Assembly: GCF_008039875.1 (NCBI RefSeq) | Contig: NZ_VRUU01000013.1 | Coordinates: forward strand, 1-64,000 | Direction of reading: 5' to 3' | Length of the DNA stretch: 64,000 bases | Origin: Methylobacterium sp. WL119 | GTDB lineage: Bacteria; Pseudomonadota; Alphaproteobacteria; Rhizobiales; Beijerinckiaceae | In this document: positions 51,022-63,719 of the stretch, piece after piece | Layout: every line of letters starts with the position of its first letter | Position numbering within the stretch: the stretch's first letter is position 1 | Position numbers and translations under genes: made by a program | Notes under the pieces: model-generated | Told to the model about the DNA's origin: nothing | The model's database searches: none | Seen by the model: only the letters and a program-made list of their open reading frames with translations

Positions 51022-53724
51022 CTACGCGGCGTCGCGCGCAAGCGCCTCCGGCAGCAGCTTGCGGATCTCAGGGATGCACGAGCCGCAATTCGTGCCGGCC
51101 TTGCAGGCCGCGCCCACCGCCTCGACGGAGCCCGCTCCGCCCGCGATGGTCGCCGTGATGACGTCGAGCCCGACCCCGTGGCAGGCGCAGACTACCGGCC
51201 CCGCCCCGGCGGTGGCGGCGCGGCCCGAGAGCAGGGCGCGGCGCTCGGCCGCGCCGGGCACCGCCTCCGCGAACAGGGCCTTGGCCGCCTCCCAGTCGGG
51301 CCGGCCCGCGTCGGGACCGAACGCGAGGCAGGCGAGGAGGCGCTCGCCGTCGTAGACCGCGCAGCGGTAGCGGCCGCGGGCATGGTCGGCGTACTCGGCG
51401 AGCTCCAGCCCCTGGAACAAGCCGCGCATCAGCAGCATGGCCTCGCGCGACCCGTCCTGCGTGGCGAATTGCAGGCCCGCGCCGCCGGCGATCGTGGCGC
51501 GCGCCCACCACCATCCGGCGGGCGCCGCGACCGGGTCGCGGCTGAGCAGGAAGCCCCGCGAGCGGTAGGCGGCAGCCTGGATCGCCGCCGGCGTCGCCTT
51601 CAGCTCGGGCTGGCCCGAAAGCGGGTCGGGCACGCCGCGGACGAGCGCCCCGACGCGGGCCATCGAGGCGTTCGAATCGTTCCAGTGCATCGGCATGAAC
51701 AGGTTGCCGGGCGCCACCGCCTCGGTGACGATCACCTCCAGCTCGGCGGCCCCGTGCGCGGTCGAGACCCGGGCGAGGCCGCCCTCGGTCAGGCCCGCGG
51801 CGGCGGCGTCGCGCGGATGCACCTGGACGAAGGGCACCGGGCGATGGGCCGAGAGCCGCGGGCTCTTCCCCGTCCGCGTCATCGTGTGCCAGTGGTCGCG
51901 CACCCGGCCGGTGTTGAGGACGAAGGGCATCGCCGCGCTCGTCGCCTGCGCCAGGGCCGGCGCCTGCACCGCGACGAAGCGGGCGCGCTTGTCGAAGGTG
52001 AAGAAGCGGCCGTCGGAAAAGAGCCGCGCCTTCGTGCCGCCGCGCTTCGTCAGCGGCCACTGCACCGGCAGGTTCGTCTCGTAGGCGGCGTCCCCGATGT
52101 CGGCGAGCGCGCCGATGTCGAAGTCGCGGGTGCCGTTGTTCTCGAACGCCGACAGCGCGGCGTGCTGGCGGAACACCGCCGCCGCCGAGGTGAAGCCGAA
52201 GGCGGCGCCGTGGCCGAGGCGGCGCCCGACGTCGGCGAGCACCGCCCAGTCCGGCCGCGCCTCGCCCGGCGCCTTGAGGAAGCGGCGCTGGCGCGTGATC
52301 CGGCGCTCGGAATTGGTGACCGTGCCGTCCTTCTCGCCCCAGGCCAGGGCCGGCAGCAGCACGGTCTTCCGGGCCGTGGCGCGGGCGGTGTCGGAATCGG
52401 CCATCACCTCGGAGACGACGAGCAGGTCGAGGCCCTTCAGGGCCTCCTTGATCGTGTCGGCCTGCGGCATCGAGACCAGCGGGTTGGTCCCCATCACCCA
52501 GAGCGCCTTGATCTTGCCGCGGGCGACCGCGTCGAACAGCGCCACCGCCTTCATCCCCTCGCCGGTGATGAGGTTCGGCGCGTTCCAGAAGCGGCGGACC
52601 TTGTCGACCTCCTCCGGCGCGAAGTGCATGTGGGCGGCCAGCATGTTGGCCAGCCCCCCGACCTCGCGCCCGCCCATGGCGTTGGGCTGGCCGGTCAGCG
52701 AGAACGGCCCCGCGCCCGGCTGCCCGATGCGCCCGGTGGCGAGGTGGCAGTTGATGATCGCGTTGCCCTTGTCGGTCCCCTGCGCCGACTGGTTCGCGCC
52801 CTGCGAGAAGGCGGTGACGACGCGCTGCGTGGCGGCGAACAGGTCGAAGAAGGCGGAGACGTCCGCCTCCGACAGGCCAGTCGCCGCCGCGGTGGCGGCC
52901 AGCGTCGGCGCGATCGACTGCGCCCGCTCGAGCGCGCCCTCGTAGCCGGAGGTGTGGTCGGTCACGAAGCGGGCGTCGCACGCGCCGATGCGGTCGAGAT
53001 GCACCAGCAGGCCCGAGAACAGCGCGCTGTCGGTCCCGGGCCTGAGGCCGAGGAACAAGTCGGCCTCCTCCGCGGTCTCGGTCCGGCGCGGGTCGACCAC
53101 CACGAGCTTGGTGCCGCGCGTCGTGCGCGCGTCCACCATCCGGCGGAACAGGATCGGGTGGCACCAGGCGGTGTTCGAGCCGACGAGCACGATGACGTCG
53201 GCCTCGTCGAGGTCCTCGTAGCAGCCCGGCACGGTGTCGGAGCCGAAGGCCCGGCGGTGGGCGGCGACCGCGCTGGACATGCACAGGCGCGAGTTGGTGT
53301 CGACGTGCGGCGTGCCGAGGAAGCCCTTCGCGAGCTTGTTGGCGACGTAGTAATCCTCAGTGAGCAGCTGCCCGGACAGGTAGAACGCGATCGCGTCCGG
53401 CCCGTGGGTCTCGGCCGTGCGGCGGAAGGCGCCGGCGACGGTGCCGAGCGCCGATTCCCACGACACCCGCGCGCCGTCGACGTGCGGGTGCAGCAGGCGG
53501 TTCTCCAGGCCCAGCGTCTCGCCGAGCGCCGAGCCCTTCGAGCACAGGCGGCCGAAATTGGCCGGGTGCGCGGTGTCCCCGGCGATCCCGGCGCCGCCCT
53601 TGCCGTCCGGCGTCGCGATCACCCCGCACCCGACGCCGCAATAGGGGCAGGTGGTCCGAACCGCCGCAGCCTGGTTCGCGCCCTGCTGGTTCGAGACCTG
53701 GGGCTCCGGCACGTGCACGGTCAT
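51022..53724 (-). CDS. nasA: Assimilatory nitrate reductase catalytic subunit (NasA type)
   Basis: The 900-residue Mo-bis-MGD enzyme has the N-terminal [4Fe-4S] ligands C26, C29, C33 and C61 (CPYCGVGC ... CSKG). It has molybdopterin-binding segments (for example GTDKGNAIINCHLATGRIG and MGGREVGGLANML) and a C-terminal BFD-like [2Fe-2S] domain with CACHG and CKAGTNCGSC. The BFD domain would accept electrons from a flavoprotein or ferredoxin. It reduces nitrate to nitrite in the cytoplasm; no Tat signal is present. The ATG lies after GAGGA. A 113-base gap separates it from the upstream gene. Confidence 0.95.
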   Translation of the reverse strand: MTVHVPEPQVSNQQGANQAAAVRTTCPYCGVGCGVIATPDGKGGAGIAGDTAHPANFGRLCSKGSALGETLGLENRLLHPHVDGARVSWESALGTVAGAFRRTAETHGPDAIAFYLSGQLLTEDYYVANKLAKGFLGTPHVDTNSRLCMSSAVAAHRRAFGSDTVPGCYEDLDEADVIVLVGSNTAWCHPILFRRMVDARTTRGTKLVVVDPRRTETAEEADLFLGLRPGTDSALFSGLLVHLDRIGACDARFVTDHTSGYEGALERAQSIAPTLAATAAATGLSEADVSAFFDLFAATQRVVTAFSQGANQSAQGTDKGNAIINCHLATGRIGQPGAGPFSLTGQPNAMGGREVGGLANMLAAHMHFAPEEVDKVRRFWNAPNLITGEGMKAVALFDAVARGKIKALWVMGTNPLVSMPQADTIKEALKGLDLLVVSEVMADSDTARATARKTVLLPALAWGEKDGTVTNSERRITRQRRFLKAPGEARPDWAVLADVGRRLGHGAAFGFTSAAAVFRQHAALSAFENNGTRDFDIGALADIGDAAYETNLPVQWPLTKRGGTKARLFSDGRFFTFDKRARFVAVQAPALAQATSAAMPFVLNTGRVRDHWHTMTRTGKSPRLSAHRPVPFVQVHPRDAAAAGLTEGGLARVSTAHGAAELEVIVTEAVAPGNLFMPMHWNDSNASMARVGALVRGVPDPLSGQPELKATPAAIQAAAYRSRGFLLSRDPVAAPAGWWWARATIAGGAGLQFATQDGSREAMLLMRGLFQGLELAEYADHARGRYRCAVYDGERLLACLAFGPDAGRPDWEAAKALFAEAVPGAAERRALLSGRAATAGAGPVVCACHGVGLDVITATIAGGAGSVEAVGAACKAGTNCGSCIPEIRKLLPEALARDAA

Positions 53725-53837
53725 GGCAGGGTCCTCGTATTCACGACGTCGGCCGGCGCCGGCGGAGGCAGCAAGAGTCGGGCCGGGCTTCCCCAGGGCC
53801 GCCCTTCCCGCGCGAGCGGGAGGGCGGCCCTGTCGGC

Positions 53838-55439
53838 TCAGTACACGTCGGCCTGGTAGCGCCCGGCCTTCTTCAGCGCGCCGAGATAGGCCACCGCCTC
53901 GTCGGGGGATTTGCCGCCGTGCTGGGCGGCGACGTCGATGATCGCGCGCTCCACGTCCTTGGCCATCCGCTTGGCGTCGCCGCAGACGTAGAAGTGGGCG
54001 CCGCCCTCCAGCCACTTCCACAAATCGGCGCCGTTCTCGCGCATGCGGTCCTGGACGTAGGTCTTCTCGGTGCCGTCGCGCGACCAGGCCAGCGACAGGC
54101 GCGTCAGCACCTTGTCGTCGCGCATCCGGGTGAGCTCGTCCTTGTAGAAGAAGTCGCTCGCCTGGCGCTGGTGGCCGTAGAACAGCCAGTTGCGCCCAGG
54201 CGCCTGCGTCGCGGCGCGCTCGCGCAGAAAGGCCCGGAACGGCGCGATGCCGGTGCCGGGGCCGCACATGATCACGTCGGTGGCGAGGTCCTTCGGCAGC
54301 CCGAAGCCGTGCGCCTTCTGCAGGTAGATCTTCGCCCGGGTCTGCTCGGGCATGCGCTCGCCGAGATGCGTCGAGGCGACGCCGAGCCGGAGGCGCGAGC
54401 GGTGGTTGTAGCGCACCGCGTCCACCGTCAGCGAGACCTTGCCCGCATCCATCTTCGGCGAGGACGAGATCGAGTAGAGCCGCGGCTGCAGCTCGTCGAG
54501 GGATTCGAGGAAGACCTCGGCGTCCGGGCGCGCGCCGGGAAACTTGTGCAGGGCGCCGAGCACGTCGAGATAGGCGGCGTCGCCGTCCGGGTCCTCGCCG
54601 GCCGAGAGCGCCTTGGCCTTCCGCCGGGCCTCGCCGGAGGTCAGCAGCGAGAGCAGCTGGTAGAGCCCGTCGGGGGCGGCGCCGAGCGAGTAGTCGGCGA
54701 TTAGCCGGTCGCGCAGGGTCTTGCCGCCGATCACCCGCTCGGGGCGGGCGCCGAGCTCGGCGATCACCGCGTCGGCGAGCGCCGGCGCGTTGGCCGGGAA
54801 CAGGCCGAGCGAATCGCCGGCCTCGTAGCTGATCGGCGTGTCCCTGAGGTCGAACTCGACGTGCCACGTCTCCTTCTCGCCGCCCGGCTCGTTGAGCCGG
54901 CGGCGGCCGAGGAAGATCGCCTCCACCGGGTTCTCGCGGCAGAAGCCGAGGGGGCCGAGGTCGGCGGCCTTGTCCGCCGCCGCCTCGCCTGCGGCCGCGG
55001 CCGGCGCGCCGGCGTCGCCCGTGCCGAACTCCTCGTCGAGCTTCTTCAGCATCCGGAGCGTCTCCTTGCCGCCGGGCTGGCAGAGGTTCAGACGCGCCTC
55101 GCTCTTGAGGAAGATGGCGTTGGCGTAGTCGGCGCAATTGTAGCCGCACTGGCCGCAATCCTGCTGCGCCATCGCCGCCATGAGCTTCTGCGGCTCGGGC
55201 CGGGCCTTGGCCATCTCCATGCGCTCGGTGATCGGCAGCGACGGGTCGTGCCAGGGCGCGTCGTCGTTGTCGGCGAGCTTGGGGCCGCCGGCCATGTCGC
55301 CGGGGGCCAGGGCGGTGGCGCCCTCGACCGCCGGGCCGAGGAGGGCGGCGAAGTAGCCCGACAGCCACGAGCGCTGGTCGGCGGAGAACGGGGCGTTCTC
55401 GGGGACGAGGACGAGGGGGGGAGAGACGTGCTCGCTCAT
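53838..55439 (-). CDS. CysJ-like flavoprotein reductase with an N-terminal Fe-S domain
   Basis: The 533-residue protein lacks the flavodoxin domain of CysJ. It has a short Fe-S motif C95-x2-C98-x3-C102 ... C120 (QDCGQCGYNCADYA), like the four-cysteine Fe-S domain of acetyl-CoA synthase subunits, followed by FAD-binding (YSISSSP, RLYS region) and NADPH-binding (CGPGTGIAPFR; WLFYGHQ; FYVCGDAKRMAKDVE) modules of the diflavin-reductase family. It overlaps nirA by ATGA and precedes nasA, so it probably passes NADPH electrons to one or both. It could be mislabelled as sulfite-reductase subunit alpha on similarity alone. Confidence 0.88.
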   Translation of the reverse strand: MSEHVSPPLVLVPENAPFSADQRSWLSGYFAALLGPAVEGATALAPGDMAGGPKLADNDDAPWHDPSLPITERMEMAKARPEPQKLMAAMAQQDCGQCGYNCADYANAIFLKSEARLNLCQPGGKETLRMLKKLDEEFGTGDAGAPAAAAGEAAADKAADLGPLGFCRENPVEAIFLGRRRLNEPGGEKETWHVEFDLRDTPISYEAGDSLGLFPANAPALADAVIAELGARPERVIGGKTLRDRLIADYSLGAAPDGLYQLLSLLTSGEARRKAKALSAGEDPDGDAAYLDVLGALHKFPGARPDAEVFLESLDELQPRLYSISSSPKMDAGKVSLTVDAVRYNHRSRLRLGVASTHLGERMPEQTRAKIYLQKAHGFGLPKDLATDVIMCGPGTGIAPFRAFLRERAATQAPGRNWLFYGHQRQASDFFYKDELTRMRDDKVLTRLSLAWSRDGTEKTYVQDRMRENGADLWKWLEGGAHFYVCGDAKRMAKDVERAIIDVAAQHGGKSPDEAVAYLGALKKAGRYQADVY

Positions 55440-57220
55440 GCGGCTGCCTTGAGGCCTGGCTGGTCTTCGGCAAGGTCGCGCAGGGCTTCCGGCCCGGTGC
55501 GCGCCGTGAAGGTCTGGAAGCTCTCGTCCGGCCCGGTGCGGCGGGCGAGGTAGGTGCGCAGCAGCGCCTCGACGCGGGACGGCGCGTCCTCCGCCTTGAT
55601 CGCGGTCCAGATCTCGGTGCCGATCTTCGGGTTCTCGGCGAAGCCGCCGCCGACCACGACGTCGTAGCCCGGAACGGTGTCGCCCTCCTCCGAGACCACC
55701 ACCTTGGCGCCGATCAGGCCGATGTCGCCGATGTAGTGCTGGGCGCAGCTGTGGTGGCAGCCGGTGACGTGCACGTTCACCGGCACGTCGAGCTCCGGCA
55801 GCGCGGCCTCGACGTGGTCGGCGATGATCATCGCGTCGCCCTTGGTGTCGGCGGCGGCGAACTTGCAGCCGTTAGAGCCGGTGCAGGCGACGAGCCCCGC
55901 ACGGATGCCGGCGGCCTTCGTGGTGAGCCCGAGCGCCTGCACCCGCGCCTCCACCTCGGCGACCTTGGCGTCGGGTACGCCGGAGAACAGGAAGTTCTGC
56001 CAGACCGTCATGCGGATCTGCCCGTCGCCGCATTCCTGCGCGATCCGCGCGAGCGCGCGGACCTGGTCGCTCATGATCTTGCCGACCGGCAGGATCACGC
56101 CGACCCAGTTCAGCCCGGGCTGGACCTGCGCATGCACGCCGACATGGGCGAACCGGTCGGTGGTGCGGCGCGGCGCGACGTGGGCGGGGTCGACCCGGTC
56201 GAGCTTGCGCCCGAGCTTCTCCTCGACGGCGGCGAGGTACTTGTCGAAGCCCCAGGCGTCGAGGACGTACTTCATCCGCGCCTTGTTGCGGTTGGTCCGG
56301 TCGCCGTTCTCGATGAACACCCGGATGATCGCATCCGAGACCGCGTTGCAATCCTCCGGCCTCAGCACGATGCCGGTGTCGCGGGCGAGGTCCCGATGGC
56401 CGGAGATGCCGCCGAGCACCAGGCGCATCCACACGCCCGGCGCGACGCTCGCGCCCTCCAGCACCTCGATCGCCTGGAAGCCGATGTCGTTGGTCTCCTC
56501 CAGCACCGCGACGATGCCGCCGCCGTCGAAGGCGACGTTGAACTTGCGCGGCAGGCCGTAGAGCGACTGGTCGTTGATGATCCAGTTGTTCCAGGACTTG
56601 GCGAGCGGACGCGTGTCGAGGAGCTCCTGGGCGTCGATCCCGGCGGTGGGCGAGCCGGTGACGTTACGGATGTTGTCGGCGCCCGCGCCGCGCGCCGTCA
56701 GCCCGATGTCGACGAGCCCGTCGAGGAAGGGCTGGGCGTGCTCGGGCGCGATGTGGCGCATCTGGAGGTTCGCCCGCGTGGTGACGTGGACGTAGCCGCC
56801 GCCATGCGCGTCGGCGAGGTCGGCGACGCCGGAAAACTGCCAATGGTGCAGGATGCCGTTGGGGATGCGCAGGCGCGCCATGAACGAGGTCTGGTTCGGG
56901 GCGACCCAGAACAGTCCGTGGTAGCGCCAGCGGAAGTTGTCCTCCGGCTTCGGGGCCTTGCCGGTGGCGGCCTCCACCTTCAGCCGGTTGTGGCCCTCGA
57001 ACGGGTTCTCCGCGCGCTTCCACTTCTCCTGCTCGCAGAGCTTGCCGCCGGCCTTCACCGTGCGGTCCTGCGCCTTGATGTGGATCGCGTCCGGCCCAGT
57101 CGGCTCGGGCGGCGGACCGCCCTGGCCGAGGGCGAGGCCGCCGGTGAGGCGGGCGGCGGCGACGCCCGAGGCGAAGCCTTCGAGGTAGCGTTGCTGTTCG
57201 GCGTTGAAGTCTTCAGCCAT
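55436..57220 (-). CDS. nirA: Siroheme-dependent nitrite/sulfite reductase (NirA type)
   Basis: The 594-residue protein has the siroheme-[4Fe-4S] ligand set C446-x5-C452 (CTGSNGCKF) and C488-x3-C492 (TGCHHSC). It also has two repeats of the sulfite/nitrite reductase half-domain (WQFSGVADLADAHGGG; GHRDLARDTGIVLRP). Nitrite reduction to ammonium fits its place between nitrate genes and CysG; sulfite reduction is not excluded. It starts 12 bases after the preceding FAD oxidoreductase stop and overlaps the next gene by four bases. Confidence 0.93.
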   Translation of the reverse strand: MAEDFNAEQQRYLEGFASGVAAARLTGGLALGQGGPPPEPTGPDAIHIKAQDRTVKAGGKLCEQEKWKRAENPFEGHNRLKVEAATGKAPKPEDNFRWRYHGLFWVAPNQTSFMARLRIPNGILHHWQFSGVADLADAHGGGYVHVTTRANLQMRHIAPEHAQPFLDGLVDIGLTARGAGADNIRNVTGSPTAGIDAQELLDTRPLAKSWNNWIINDQSLYGLPRKFNVAFDGGGIVAVLEETNDIGFQAIEVLEGASVAPGVWMRLVLGGISGHRDLARDTGIVLRPEDCNAVSDAIIRVFIENGDRTNRNKARMKYVLDAWGFDKYLAAVEEKLGRKLDRVDPAHVAPRRTTDRFAHVGVHAQVQPGLNWVGVILPVGKIMSDQVRALARIAQECGDGQIRMTVWQNFLFSGVPDAKVAEVEARVQALGLTTKAAGIRAGLVACTGSNGCKFAAADTKGDAMIIADHVEAALPELDVPVNVHVTGCHHSCAQHYIGDIGLIGAKVVVSEEGDTVPGYDVVVGGGFAENPKIGTEIWTAIKAEDAPSRVEALLRTYLARRTGPDESFQTFTARTGPEALRDLAEDQPGLKAAA

Positions 57221-57232
57221 GGTCTGCCTCCT

Positions 57233-58510
57233 TCACGCTGCCAGATTCTTGGCGAGGGGTTCGGCCGGGGGCGCCGCGGGGCGCCCGAACATCAGGTCGT
57301 CGATCTGATCCCCGACCGGCGCGCCGGTGCGGATCAGGGTCTTGCACAGGCCCTGCTCGCCGATGTCGCCGACGAAGACCGCGCCGATCAGGCGGTCGCG
57401 CTCGACCAGGAGCTTGCGGTAGAGGCCGGCGCCCGGATCGCTCATCACGATCGCCTCCGCGGTGTCGGGCGTGTCGACCACGCCCGCGGAGAACACCGGC
57501 AGCCCCGAGACCTTGAGGCTCGTCGAGAGCGCCGTGCCGGAATACTGGGCCTCGAGCCCGGAGAGGTGGCGGCTCAGGGTCTCGGCATGCTCGTAGGCCG
57601 GCTCGACGAGGCCGTAGACCATGCCGCGATGCTCGGCGCATTCGCCGAGCGCGAAGATCCGCGGGTCCGAGGTGGTCATCCGGTCGTCGACCTTGATGCC
57701 GCGCCCGGTCTCGATCCCCGCGCCCTGCGCTAGGGCGAGGTTCGGGCGCACGCCCACCGACATGACGACGAGATCGGCCGGCAGCACCGTGCCGTCGGCC
57801 AGGATCAGGCGCTCGACGCGGCCGTCGCCCTCGACGCGGTCGGTGTCGGCGTTGAGCAGGACCTTGACGCCGCGCGCCTCCATCGCCCGGCGGACCAGGG
57901 CGGCCGCGGAATGATCGAGCTGCCGTTCCATCAGCCGGTCCATGACGTGGAGCAGGGTGGTGTCGACGCCGAGCCGCGCCAGCCCGACCGCCGCCTCGAG
58001 CCCGAGCAGGCCGCCGCCGATGACGATGGCCTTGGCGTGCTGGACCGCCGCCTTCCGGATCGCCGACACGTCCGCCAGGTCGCGGAACGTGATGATGCCG
58101 GGCAGGTCCATCCCGGGCTTGGGCAGGCGGATCGGCACGGAGCCGACCGCGAGCACCAGCTTGTCGAACGGCAGGACGTGGGTCTCGCCGACCACGACCA
58201 GCGCGTTCTCGCGGTCGACCTGCGTGGCGGGGGCGCCGGTGATCAGGCGGATGCCGTGGCTCTCGTACCAGTCGAGCCCGCGGAAGGCGCAGGCCGCCTC
58301 GTCGACCTCGCCGCCGAGGAGCGAGGACAGCAGCACCCGGTTGTAGGCGGCCACCGGCTCGGCGCCGACCACGGTGACGTCGTAGCGGCCGGGCGACCCT
58401 TCGGTCAGCCGCTCGAGAAACCGCAGCGAGGCCATGCCGTTGCCGACCACGACGAGCCTCTCGCGCGGGATCTCCGCGGCTGGAACCTGATCCGTCTGGG
58501 CTGTGAGCAT
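57233..58510 (-). CDS. FAD-dependent NAD(P)H oxidoreductase of the nitrite-reductase operon
   Basis: The 425-residue protein has two nucleotide-binding glycine motifs (VVGNGMASLRFLE near residue 20; VIGGGLLGLEAAVGL near 155) and the FAD-binding GECAEHRGMVYGLVEPAYEHA segment. This is the layout of the NirB/NasB N-terminal region, here as a free protein without the siroheme part. It is the first gene of the operon, downstream of a leader of at least 150 bases. It probably supplies electrons from NAD(P)H to the reductases. The ATG of MLTAQTDQVP was chosen because the upstream frame passes through the leader hairpins. Confidence 0.88.
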   Translation of the reverse strand: MLTAQTDQVPAAEIPRERLVVVGNGMASLRFLERLTEGSPGRYDVTVVGAEPVAAYNRVLLSSLLGGEVDEAACAFRGLDWYESHGIRLITGAPATQVDRENALVVVGETHVLPFDKLVLAVGSVPIRLPKPGMDLPGIITFRDLADVSAIRKAAVQHAKAIVIGGGLLGLEAAVGLARLGVDTTLLHVMDRLMERQLDHSAAALVRRAMEARGVKVLLNADTDRVEGDGRVERLILADGTVLPADLVVMSVGVRPNLALAQGAGIETGRGIKVDDRMTTSDPRIFALGECAEHRGMVYGLVEPAYEHAETLSRHLSGLEAQYSGTALSTSLKVSGLPVFSAGVVDTPDTAEAIVMSDPGAGLYRKLLVERDRLIGAVFVGDIGEQGLCKTLIRTGAPVGDQIDDLMFGRPAAPPAEPLAKNLAA

Positions 58511-58556: not shown

Positions 58557-58624
58557 AAAAAAGCCGCCGCCGATCGACCTCCCGGCAAGCGTCGCCGCCC
58601 GCGAGGAGACATCGGTTCAGCGGC
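58557..58624 (-). terminator. Leader terminator overlapping P2
   Basis: On the minus strand, a long imperfect hairpin pairs GCCGC (58,624-58,620) with GCGGC, CCGAT with ATCGG and CTCC with GGAG (right arm within 58,582-58,563), with small internal loops, then runs into six T (58,562-58,557). Its left arm includes bases of the P2 right arm, so P2 and the terminator cannot form together. Translation of the first operon gene begins about 47 bases after the T tract. Folding energies were not computed. Confidence 0.55.
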
Positions 58625-58662
58625 CTCGCTGACGGTGCTGCCCGTCGTCGTTGACGGGTCGG
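58557..58662 (-). promoter_or_regulatory. ANTAR-type nitrate leader RNA with P1/P2 hairpins and terminator
   Basis: On the minus strand, hairpin P1 is CCCGTC (58,658-58,653), loop AACGAC (58,652-58,647), then GACGGG (58,646-58,641): six base pairs and a hexaloop with A at position 1 and G at position 4, the ANTAR-binding signature. Eight bases later, P2 is TCAGC, loop GAGGCC (58,627-58,622), then GCTGA: five base pairs, with the loop matching only the G4 rule. NasT binding to this pair of hairpins should prevent the terminator that follows. A nasT gene is 1.6 kb upstream. The transcription start is not mapped. Confidence 0.7.
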
Positions 58663-58915
58663 ATCACCTCAGCAGGTTCCGTGCCAGTTCGGCGGGACGA
58701 GGCTCGCGCGCTCTGCCGGGCACGGCCGAGCGGTCGGTGCCCGATTTCGCGCGGAGGGTGTGCGCTGCACAAAGATGAGGCGAATGAAGCCCGATCGGGC
58801 AGGGGCCCACGATGCACTCTCGACTCGACCGCGCAGCGTCGCGGGCCCGTCTAACGCGGGAAGGACGCTCGGCGGGGGGCGCGAGCGTCCAGGAGGCTTG
58901 TGCCCGGCGGGTCGG

Positions 58916-59209: not shown

Positions 59210-60226
59210 TCAGGCGGGGGATAGTCCGGCCGCCGCGTAGAGATCCGGGCGGTAGACCGCCTCCGCGGCGGGCAGGAGGTCGTCGAGCGGCCCCTGCCCT
59301 GCCGCCTTCATCTGCGCCAGCACCCAGCCGGCATGCGCGGCGCGCGGCTCCTGCGCCGCCGCGTCGAGGCGCAGGTAGTCGGGGGCCTCGCGCTGCAGAC
59401 CCGTCCCGTCGAGGACGATCGTGCCCTCGAGGGTGCGGGCGATCAGGGCGGGATCGAGGTTGAGATAGGCTCGCCGCGCGAGCCGGTGGGCTAGCTCGGA
59501 GCGGTTCGCCGGGTCCGCGCACCAGCGCCCTGCCCTGGCGACGGCCCGCACCAGGGGCGGGATCGCGCCGTCGAGCCGCGGCGCGACCGCGAGGACCTTC
59601 TCGGGCGCGTCCGGCGCCACCTCGCAGCCGAGCGCGGCGATGCGCCCGAGGCCGGCCGCGACCGCGACCGCGTTCCAGGGCGCGCCAGCGCAGAAGCCGT
59701 CGACGATCCCGCGCGACAGCGCCTCGACGCTGTGCTGGGGCGGCACCGCCACCAGCCGGACGGCGGCCGGGTCGAGGCCGCCGGCCTCGGCGAACAGCCG
59801 GAGCTGATAGGTGTGCGAGGAGAACGGGTGGACGGTGCCGAGCGTCAGCGGCTTGCCGGCCTGCCTCCGCGCGCGCGCGACCCGGGCGAAGGTGCGGGCG
59901 ACGTCGGCGAGGCGCTCGCTCTCGGGCGCCATCGCCGCCCAGAGGCTGCCGGACAGGGTGATCGCGTTGCCGTTCAGGCTGAGCGACAGCGGCACAATCA
60001 GGTCGGAGGGCGGCCCCGACAGCCCGAGCGCGCTCGCCAGCGCCAGCGGCGCCAGGATGTGCGCGGCGTCGAGGTAGCCGAGCGCCAGCCGGTCGCGCAG
60101 CGTCGCCCAGGACGGCTCGGCGGTAAGGTCGAGATCGAGCCCTTCGGCGCGGGCGAAGCCCATCTCGTGGGCGGCGATCACGGGGGCCGCGTCGCAGAGG
60201 GGCACGTAGCCCAGGTGAAGTCTCAT
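59210..60226 (-). CDS. nasS: NasS nitrate/nitrite sensor protein
   Basis: The 338-residue protein resembles the nitrate-binding proteins NrtA/CmpA (LGYVPLCDAAPVIAAHEMGF; PSWATLRDRLALGYLDAAHIL; GTVHPFSSHTYQLRLF), but it has no signal peptide or lipobox, as expected for the cytoplasmic sensor NasS. NasS holds NasT inactive and releases it when nitrate or nitrite binds. It lies 21 bases downstream of nasT on the same strand. The ATG begins directly MRLHLGYVP. Confidence 0.92.
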   Translation of the reverse strand: MRLHLGYVPLCDAAPVIAAHEMGFARAEGLDLDLTAEPSWATLRDRLALGYLDAAHILAPLALASALGLSGPPSDLIVPLSLSLNGNAITLSGSLWAAMAPESERLADVARTFARVARARRQAGKPLTLGTVHPFSSHTYQLRLFAEAGGLDPAAVRLVAVPPQHSVEALSRGIVDGFCAGAPWNAVAVAAGLGRIAALGCEVAPDAPEKVLAVAPRLDGAIPPLVRAVARAGRWCADPANRSELAHRLARRAYLNLDPALIARTLEGTIVLDGTGLQREAPDYLRLDAAAQEPRAAHAGWVLAQMKAAGQGPLDDLLPAAEAVYRPDLYAAAGLSPA

Positions 60227-60247: not shown

Positions 60248-60835
60248 TCATCCGAGCAGGTCGGCCGCGGTGACGATCGCCCGCGCGATGTCGGCGATCT
60301 TCCGCTTCTCGTTCATCGCCTTCTTGCGCAGCTGCTTGTAGGCCTCGTCCTCGGACAGGCCCTTCATGCTCATGAGGATGCCCTTGGCGCGCTCGATCAG
60401 CTTGCGGTCGGCGAGCTCGCCCCGCGCCTCCGACAGCTCCCGCTGCAGCCGCGAGAACGCGTTGAAGCGCAGGATCGCGATGTCGAGGATCGGCTTGATC
60501 CGCTCGGGCCGCAGGCCGTCGACGACGTAGGCCGAGATCCCGGCATCGACCGCCGCCTGCATCATTGTGGCGTCCGAGCGGTCGACGAACATCGCCACCG
60601 GCCGCTCGACGTGGCGCGCGACCCCCGACATCTGCTCCAGGATGTCGCGGCTCGGGCTCTCCAGGTGGATCACCACCACGTCGGGGGCGAGCGCGGCGAC
60701 GCGCTCCATCAGGTCGGCGGTGTCGGCCATCACCACGACGCGGCCGATCCCGGCGGCGCGCAGGCCCTCCTCCAGGATCGCGGCACGCGCCCGGCTCGGA
60801 TCGATCACGGCGACGGTGAGGCTGGTTTCGGTCAT
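60248..60835 (-). CDS. nasT: NasT antiterminator (ANTAR protein)
   Basis: The 195-residue protein has an N-terminal pseudo-receiver (VAVIDPSRARAAILEEGLR) without a full phosphorylation site and a C-terminal ANTAR domain (about residues 130-190: LIERAKGILMSMKGLSEDEAY, then RKKAMNEKRKIADIARAIV). ANTAR proteins bind paired hexaloop hairpins in leader RNAs and prevent termination. A matching hairpin precedes the nas operon here. The start is the ATG of MTETSLTVAVIDP. Confidence 0.94.
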   Translation of the reverse strand: MTETSLTVAVIDPSRARAAILEEGLRAAGIGRVVVMADTADLMERVAALAPDVVVIHLESPSRDILEQMSGVARHVERPVAMFVDRSDATMMQAAVDAGISAYVVDGLRPERIKPILDIAILRFNAFSRLQRELSEARGELADRKLIERAKGILMSMKGLSEDEAYKQLRKKAMNEKRKIADIARAIVTAADLLG

Positions 60836-61652: not shown

Positions 61653-61826
61653 GGCGGCCCGGAATCCCGCGCGATGCTGCAGTGCGGCCGCCCGACCGGG
61701 GCCGCGATCCGACCCGCACTGCCGCCGCCATCGGATTTCCCGGGCGCGGCCTGGACCGCATCGCGTCGCCGACCTAGGTGCAAGGCATCGGACGGCTGCT
61801 GTCGCCGGCCGCGACGGATCCGCTTC

Positions 61827-63719
<1,893 letters not shown>

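Follow-up and report, generated by a model that had tools for sequence, protein, structure and literature searches.

A predicted NasT-responsive antitermination leader with a variant second hexaloop upstream of a Methylobacterium nitrate operon

The nitrate locus and its leader

We analyzed a 64,000-nucleotide stretch of DNA from Methylobacterium sp. WL119 (the window), which contains nasT and nasS and, downstream of them on the minus strand, a short leader and an operon of nitrate/nitrite reductase genes. The features of this locus are as follows.

51022-53835, minus strand: molybdopterin oxidoreductase ending in a BFD [2Fe-2S] domain, the presumed nitrate reductase
53838-55439, minus strand: sulfite-reductase-like flavoprotein (NF004859, above cut-off)
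55436-57220, minus strand: NirA-type nitrite reductase (NF007126, above cut-off)
57233-58510, minus strand: first controlled gene, an FAD/NADH oxidoreductase similar to the N-terminal part of NirB (TIGR02374, 397 bits, cut-off 578)
58557-58624, minus strand: predicted intrinsic terminator (fold, overlap count in nas leaders, shuffle test)
58617-58632, minus strand: P2 hairpin TCAGC-GAGGCC-GCTGA, five pairs, hexaloop with G1 and G4
58633-58640, minus strand: 8-nt linker from P1 to P2 (sequence)
58641-58658, minus strand: P1 hairpin CCCGTC-AACGAC-GACGGG, six pairs, hexaloop with A1 and G4 (sequence, fold, compensatory pairs)
58671-58686, minus strand: sigma-54 (-24/-12) promoter predicted from sequence, TGGCACGGAACCTGCT (GG-N10-GC; TGGCACG-N4-CTGCT)
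58761-58772, minus strand: candidate half-site TTGTGCAGCGCA of an NtrC-type enhancer, weak here and 86 bases 5' of the promoter
59210-60226, minus strand: nasS, NMT1-like (PF13379), a putative nitrate-binding sensor named from position and family
60248-60835, minus strand: nasT, 195 aa, receiver-like and ANTAR domains

The first controlled gene probably starts at the in-frame ATG at 58510, which we preferred over an ATG at 58612 that lies inside the terminator. The molybdopterin enzyme matched two profiles below their cut-offs, that of formate dehydrogenase alpha with 421 bits and that of NasC with 404 bits, and its role as nitrate reductase was therefore assigned from context. A trehalase-like gene (61674-63719, plus strand; NF041084, below cut-off) is located upstream of nasT.

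An earlier reading of this DNA, made from the sequence only, had placed nasT and nasS just upstream of the leader. Both genes are present and conserved there, adjacent to each other and to the operon that they would control, and NasT was the sole ANTAR-domain protein detected in the window genome. We aligned NasT with EutV, NasR, AmiR and one antiterminator that we take to be from Mycobacterium. It was identical to EutV at R142, K143, K149, E160, Y164, R168, M172 and N173 and had conservative changes at K147, R175 and R177 (positions from the alignment, numbered by hand). The EutV-RNA study reports eleven EutV residues as RNA contacts (PMC8934654).

In the leader, the six-pair P1 stem with its A1/G4 hexaloop was found at 58658-58641, as the sequence-only reading had it, and the sequence also agreed with that reading in having P2 eight bases after P1, with its right arm overlapping the left arm of a terminator that ends in six T; this arrangement is conserved. 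The left arm of the terminator (GCCGCTG-AA-CCGAT, 58624-58611) takes in G4-C6 of the P2 loop and the P2 right arm, and its right arm (ATCGG-CGGCGGC, 58574-58563) is followed by T6 at 58562-58557. P1 folded at -10.8 kcal/mol (2 of 200 shuffles were as good), P2 at -8.6 kcal/mol with G1-C6 closed (4/200), P1 and P2 jointly at -19.7 kcal/mol (7/200) and the terminator stretch at -40.4 kcal/mol (z -3.97; 1/200). P1 and the terminator, an unstable fold of which would have spoken against the sequence-only reading, are both stable. The 210-nt leader as a whole showed no unusual stability (z -1.26; 21/200); its minimum-energy fold contained P1 and the terminator, the latter in place of P2, as would be expected of the default state.

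The sigma-54 promoter directly upstream of P1 had escaped the sequence-only reading. Judged against the consensus forms for sigma-54 and NtrC sites, it has GG-N10-GC in the TGGCAC and TGC context, and the predicted +1, twelve bases counted from the -12 C, is at 58660, two bases 5' of the P1 stem. Transcription would thus start just before P1, and not downstream of it. The GG and GC columns were invariant across 42 aligned leaders, which had been preselected with the GG/GC pattern; some leaders end the promoter in CTGCC (L006, L035 and L054). The distance from promoter to P1 is near-constant, with the P1 loop at offset 33-38 (L071 and L072 left out), and for this reason promoter and RNA hairpin can pass for one conserved RNA. 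Further upstream, 44 of the 70 leaders carry the 8-mer TTTGTGCA, whose median position relative to the promoter is -98, and an NtrC-like palindrome, GCAC-N7-GTGC, was present in 5 leaders (L005, L015, L016, L032 and L121) among the 60 listed. In the window genome, the NtrC-like site is a half-site only.

Conservation of the leader and the proposed switch

The leader was searched for with two covariance models. The training set of R1 included the window leader and a second leader of the same genome, so that R1 scores for both are circular; R2 was built from 40 leaders that came from relatives and excluded both leaders of the window genome. In the window, R2 found the leader at 58685-58614 with 66.5 bits (E 2.2e-16, a rough value), followed by a next best match of 13.5 bits. 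Two clear members were detected in the whole genome, the window leader and C238:1718-1790 (49.0 bits). A third match had 25.4 bits (G000:C222:21044-21108), and a scan for a P1-P2 pair around it (L230) found none.

Matches to R2 were detected in 110 of 111 genomes of the genus, some of which had supplied training sequences; the exception is a genome that is 70% complete, and the count was 109/109 for genomes with at least 90% completeness and at most 5% contamination. A plain DNA search found the leader in 77 of the 111 genomes. Twelve further R2 matches of 27-34 bits in the genus were left out of the loop readings, and a scan of the surroundings of one of them (L231) gave no result. Over the order, R1 matched 17 of 199 genomes at E 0.001, four of them in Methylobacterium, so that the form captured by the model would not be general across the order.

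At the named nasS loci of the family (L032-L080), R2 found the leader in 46 of 49. No leader was found by R2 at L036, L041 and L063 (best 14.3 bits), and L063 ends soon after nasS. L036 and L041 are from species of the G1 clade described below and have nasT-nasS, with no leader in the stretch searched; these loci are perhaps rearranged. The C-G closing pair of both hairpins, G4 of both loops and A1 of P1 were each present in 46/46 of the leaders read with R2, a reading that leans to the model consensus. Conservation of the P1 hexaloop among relatives, on which the sequence-only reading depended, was thus observed. Linker length varied from 4 to 10 nt across nas leaders (L071 and L072 left out), and the 8 nt of the window leader are inside the 5-12 nt working range of the E. 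faecalis eut genes (PMC3369931).

Paired positions also changed together. In the R2 alignment of 40 leaders 90.8% of cells pair, and 107 cells had changed on both sides, against a mean of 36.3 in shuffled alignments (0/500 as high) and at most 35 when partners were slid. Counted by pairs with two-sided change, the signal did not exceed that of shuffles (10, with a mean of 8.2 in shuffles; 38/500 as high). Of the 66 distinct nas leaders, 65 had a P2-overlapping terminator, as did 23 of 24 loci of the narK RNA (discussed below); among second leaders the count was 0/4. The terminator test was passed by 88/88 leaders with a T-run and by 207/880 with shuffled downstream sequence, a comparison that favors the observed side since real leaders were allowed the best of several T-runs and shuffles one. 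Such terminators fit the published ANTAR model, in which ANTAR binding holds P2 and so keeps the P2 right arm from the terminator (PMC3369931).

It is very unlikely that what separates nasS from the reductase operon is a plain constitutive attenuator or a processing site, with an incidental P1 and NasT uninvolved. Such a view draws on the fact that NasT binding in this organism is a prediction and on the ordinary stability of the 210-nt leader, but it is at odds with the invariance of A1 and G4 in P1 (46/46), the compensatory changes, the promoter-P1-P2 order in 110/111 genomes, the terminator overlap in 65/66 distinct leaders and the second copy that precedes an NrtA-like gene. We are highly confident instead that the leader is a nitrate-responsive transcription attenuator of the NasT/ANTAR type. 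The basis for this is its anatomy, conservation, pair covariation and gene context, together with the single ANTAR protein detected.

From these features we infer NasT binding, termination, nitrate dependence and NtrC dependence in the following form. The sigma-54 promoter, probably controlled by NtrC, would start the transcript right before P1. When nitrate is absent, NasS would hold NasT, the P2 right arm would go into the terminator, and transcription would halt ahead of the nitrate/nitrite reductase genes. When nitrate is present, freed NasT would bind the P1 and P2 hexaloops, hold P2 and block the terminator. Transcription of the operon would then require nitrogen limitation plus nitrate.

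The first position of the P2 loop

The P1 hexaloop with A1 and G4, the P2 hexaloop with G4, the linker and the P2-overlapping terminator are all as in ANTAR targets, but the P2 hexaloop of the window leader has G1 and not A1. Because A1 of P2 was among the features tested, we filed the leader as a variant; every other feature tested is that of an ANTAR antitermination leader, and the system is otherwise textbook.

Position 1 of P2 was A in 25 and G in 21 of the 46 nasS-locus leaders read with R2. In a second, pattern-based set the 66 distinct Methylobacterium nas leaders comprised 29 with A and 37 with G at this position, and A was present in 4/4 second leaders; among 24 narK loci, where the A1 pattern was tried ahead of the G1 pattern, it was A in 22 and G in 2 (L140 and L161). 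G4 occurred in both loops in 94/94 leaders of this set (66 nas, 4 second and 24 narK leaders), figures that lean to A1/G4 because of the selection patterns: P1 was chosen with a preference (Methylobacterium) or a demand (narK loci) for A1 and G4, P2 was chosen with a preference for loops in which pyrimidines come after G4, and rows that had no GCCGCTG-like motif were removed. The loops of L071 and L072 were read by hand for this set.

On a NasT+NasS tree of 55 rows (midpoint root; long branches L045, L081 and L091), the 22 G1 rows, window included, need one change, with support of 100/100. The G1 clade has 24 rows, in which 22/22 leaders read have G and two other rows are without a leader read; its sister clade consists of four rows with A1. 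Nesting suggests an A-to-G polarity, with outgroup rows lacking a leader read, and the loops seen fit one step, from AAGGCC to GAGGCC. These sequences point to a single A-to-G change at P2 position 1 within Methylobacterium. A sequencing slip as the source of G1 was ruled out by 37/66 distinct leaders and by the single change on the tree.

A change of NasT specificity to match G1 was also considered. At residue 157 (window 60365-60367), which corresponds to EutV 155, NasT has M, L, I or V in the G1 clade, but A or R in A1 Methylobacterium. This candidate cause was dropped, as M is also found at narK loci with A1 loops (L136-L139 and L149), and the pattern probably reflects shared ancestry.

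A second strong leader (at least 45 bits with R2) was present in 13 genomes of the genus. The one in the window genome is at L112:1716-1890 (C238), and the others are L218-L229. According to tblastn, all 13 precede a relative of the NrtA-like protein of the window genome, which matched Pfam NMT1-like (PF13379) and no NCBIfam above cut-off; NrtA is the name that we presume for it. P2 of these second leaders had A1 and G4 in 13/13 (ACCGCC, AACGCC, AATGGC and AGCGCC), whereas the nas leader of each of the same 13 genomes had G1. With G1 found throughout its clade and A1 in the second leaders, G1 looks like a local exception to the A1 rule that has remained stable. NasT in cells with both leaders is expected to meet A1 and G1 forms; that it is the single ANTAR protein detected applies to the window genome alone among the 13. 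A proper T-run terminator after P2 was found in 0/4 second leaders tested, and among the eight sequences printed only L112 has four T, which are not directly 3' of the stem. Another control mode may therefore act there.

How G1 affects P2 can be considered from its predicted structure. A sixth pair, G1-C6, is possible and leaves the AGGC tetraloop that the sequence-only reading had pointed out; P2 was predicted at -7.8 kcal/mol closed and -5.6 kcal/mol open, and in free RNA G1 should close the loop in this way. That reading had gone on to suggest a variant recognition rule. The fixation of G1 across a clade gives this idea partial support, but an actinobacterial ANTAR survey had already admitted loops that depart from the rule once (PMC8164766). 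In the EutV-RNA structure, G4 stacks on Tyr164, A1 has no specific contact, and A1 is proposed to stop the loop folding on itself (PMC8934654). The lack of a specific contact offers a reason why G1 could be tolerated. Walshe et al. suggest that Met172 may exclude tetraloop-size loops (PMC8934654), and in E. faecalis a change of loop 2 position 1 to U lowered induction (PMC3369931).

It is possible, though in our view unlikely, that the leader is the same in kind but that P2 of this clade is unread by NasT, its closed and stable tetraloop folding unaided and P1 alone acting. The energy difference between closed and open P2, the fixation of G1 in one clade and the description of a single hexaloop as the minimal ANTAR site (PMC8934654) are consistent with this possibility. 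However, G4 of the P2 loop is invariant (46/46), an observation that is not decisive because G4 has a pairing partner in the terminator as well; the study that describes the minimal site also states that each hexaloop has to be contacted if termination is to be prevented (PMC8934654), and the terminator, at -40 kcal/mol, outweighs an unaided P2. Under the preferred reading, that of NasT acting through both hairpins, NasT of the G1 clade would most likely still read the invariant G4, with either purine tolerated at position 1.

The A1 rule steers searches for ANTAR targets, and the G1 clade would allow a clean test of both the role of position 1 and the need for a P2 hexaloop. It offers a natural A-to-G change that was apparently made once and has been retained across the clade, and 13 or more of its genomes also have a leader with A1 at another locus.

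narK RNA and known ANTAR leaders

The sequence-only reading had proposed a check against an Rfam ANTAR model. No Rfam family reached its gathering score in a scan of the leader, and none named for ANTAR turned up. The nearest family was narK RNA (RF03032), with 26.8 bits against a cut-off of 43.2. This family was reportedly described by Weinberg and others in 2017, and to our knowledge it is an orphan family. We found no mention of narK RNA or RF03032 in the literature searched, the family's original description being outside that search. The printed narK RNA consensus has GG-N10-GC at its start and a P1 loop AACGGC, and it holds an unmarked CGAC-AAAGAC-GUCG, which is a P2 hexaloop with A1 and G4. 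NarK RNA loci and the window leader are alike in the sigma-54 promoter, P1, the P2 hexaloop and the overlapping terminator. They are unlike in that Rfam marks P1 alone, the window leader scores below the cut-off, and the P2 stem sequence differs.

Of 398 genomes sampled from the phylum, 21 had an RF03032 match (16 above the cut-off), as did 4 of 289 from the class (none above it). Six of the 36 phylum-level matches were left out of the locus reading. Of 33 narK loci read (L132-L164), 24 were counted, L133 is a Methylobacterium leader, and eight were outside R1 training; all eight matched R1 with E 7.1e-6 or better, and their alignments were inspected except for that of L151. Two loci, L135 and L155, have three candidate ANTAR hexaloops in series, not two. 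All 24 genomes with a narK match had an ANTAR gene, as did 21 of the 44 sampled that had none, several of the latter being small or incomplete; restricted to narK-free genomes with completeness of 90% or more and contamination of 5% or less, the count was 21/38. An ANTAR gene was located within 2 kb of the narK match in 20 of 24 genomes (exceptions: G734, G720, G274 and G285).

These counts also bear on the idea that the leader is a narK-type, riboswitch-like RNA with nitrate or some other small molecule as its direct ligand and no part for NasT. The weak match to narK RNA and the orphan status of this family might suggest it. However, the narK loci themselves carry the ANTAR dual hexaloop, ANTAR genes are found in 24/24 genomes with narK RNA and 21/44 of those that lack it (within 2 kb in 20/24), and the conserved core seems smaller than an aptamer would need to be. 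We consider a riboswitch of this kind extremely improbable. If instead narK RNA is a sigma-54 promoter plus an ANTAR leader, an orphan Rfam family would gain a mechanism, and the annotated structure, which is now without P2 and counts promoter bases as RNA, would be corrected. A composite view, in which P2 of the clade is a self-folding AGGC tetraloop, NasT acts mainly via P1, the second leader of the same cell retains two classical hexaloops and narK RNA is an ANTAR leader plus a sigma-54 promoter and no RNA class of its own, is unlikely when taken as a whole.

Several points count against NasT-dependent antitermination as the best explanation, namely a P2 that has no A1, the tetraloop of free P2, the sub-cut-off Rfam score and the weak NtrC site. 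The kind of switch and its mechanism are already known, and loop variation in ANTAR targets is already in print. What is added here is the apparent single origin of G1, the occurrence of A1 and G1 leaders in the same cell, the predicted placement of the sigma-54 start and the suggested reading of narK RNA; among the literature matches listed, no paper dealt with a NasT leader in Methylobacterium.

Known counterparts of the window leader include nas leaders of Azotobacter and Pseudomonas, which are controlled by NasT. NasT-controlled nas leaders of Paracoccus and Bradyrhizobium share with it the NasS-NasT pair, hairpins before the operon, an antitermination model and nitrate control (PMC3795266, PMC5424462, PMC6759348). 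In Paracoccus, NasT binds the nasA leader when nitrate is there, and nitrate makes NasS and NasT dissociate (PMC3795266); mutations of the hairpins were assayed by lacZ fusions and by growth on nitrate (PMC5424462). In B. diazoefficiens, narK and bjgb, which have predicted NasT hairpins, went up and not down when NasT was missing (PMC6759348), an observation that speaks against a simple antitermination picture. The window leader, with G1 in P2, may differ in this position from these nas leaders, and a promoter-to-P1 spacing is described for it here. It is also similar to the EutV/eut, NasR/nasF and AmiR/amiE RNAs in having two short stems, hexaloops and a P2 shared with the terminator; those RNAs, however, have A1 and G4 in both loops, whereas P2 of the window leader has G1.
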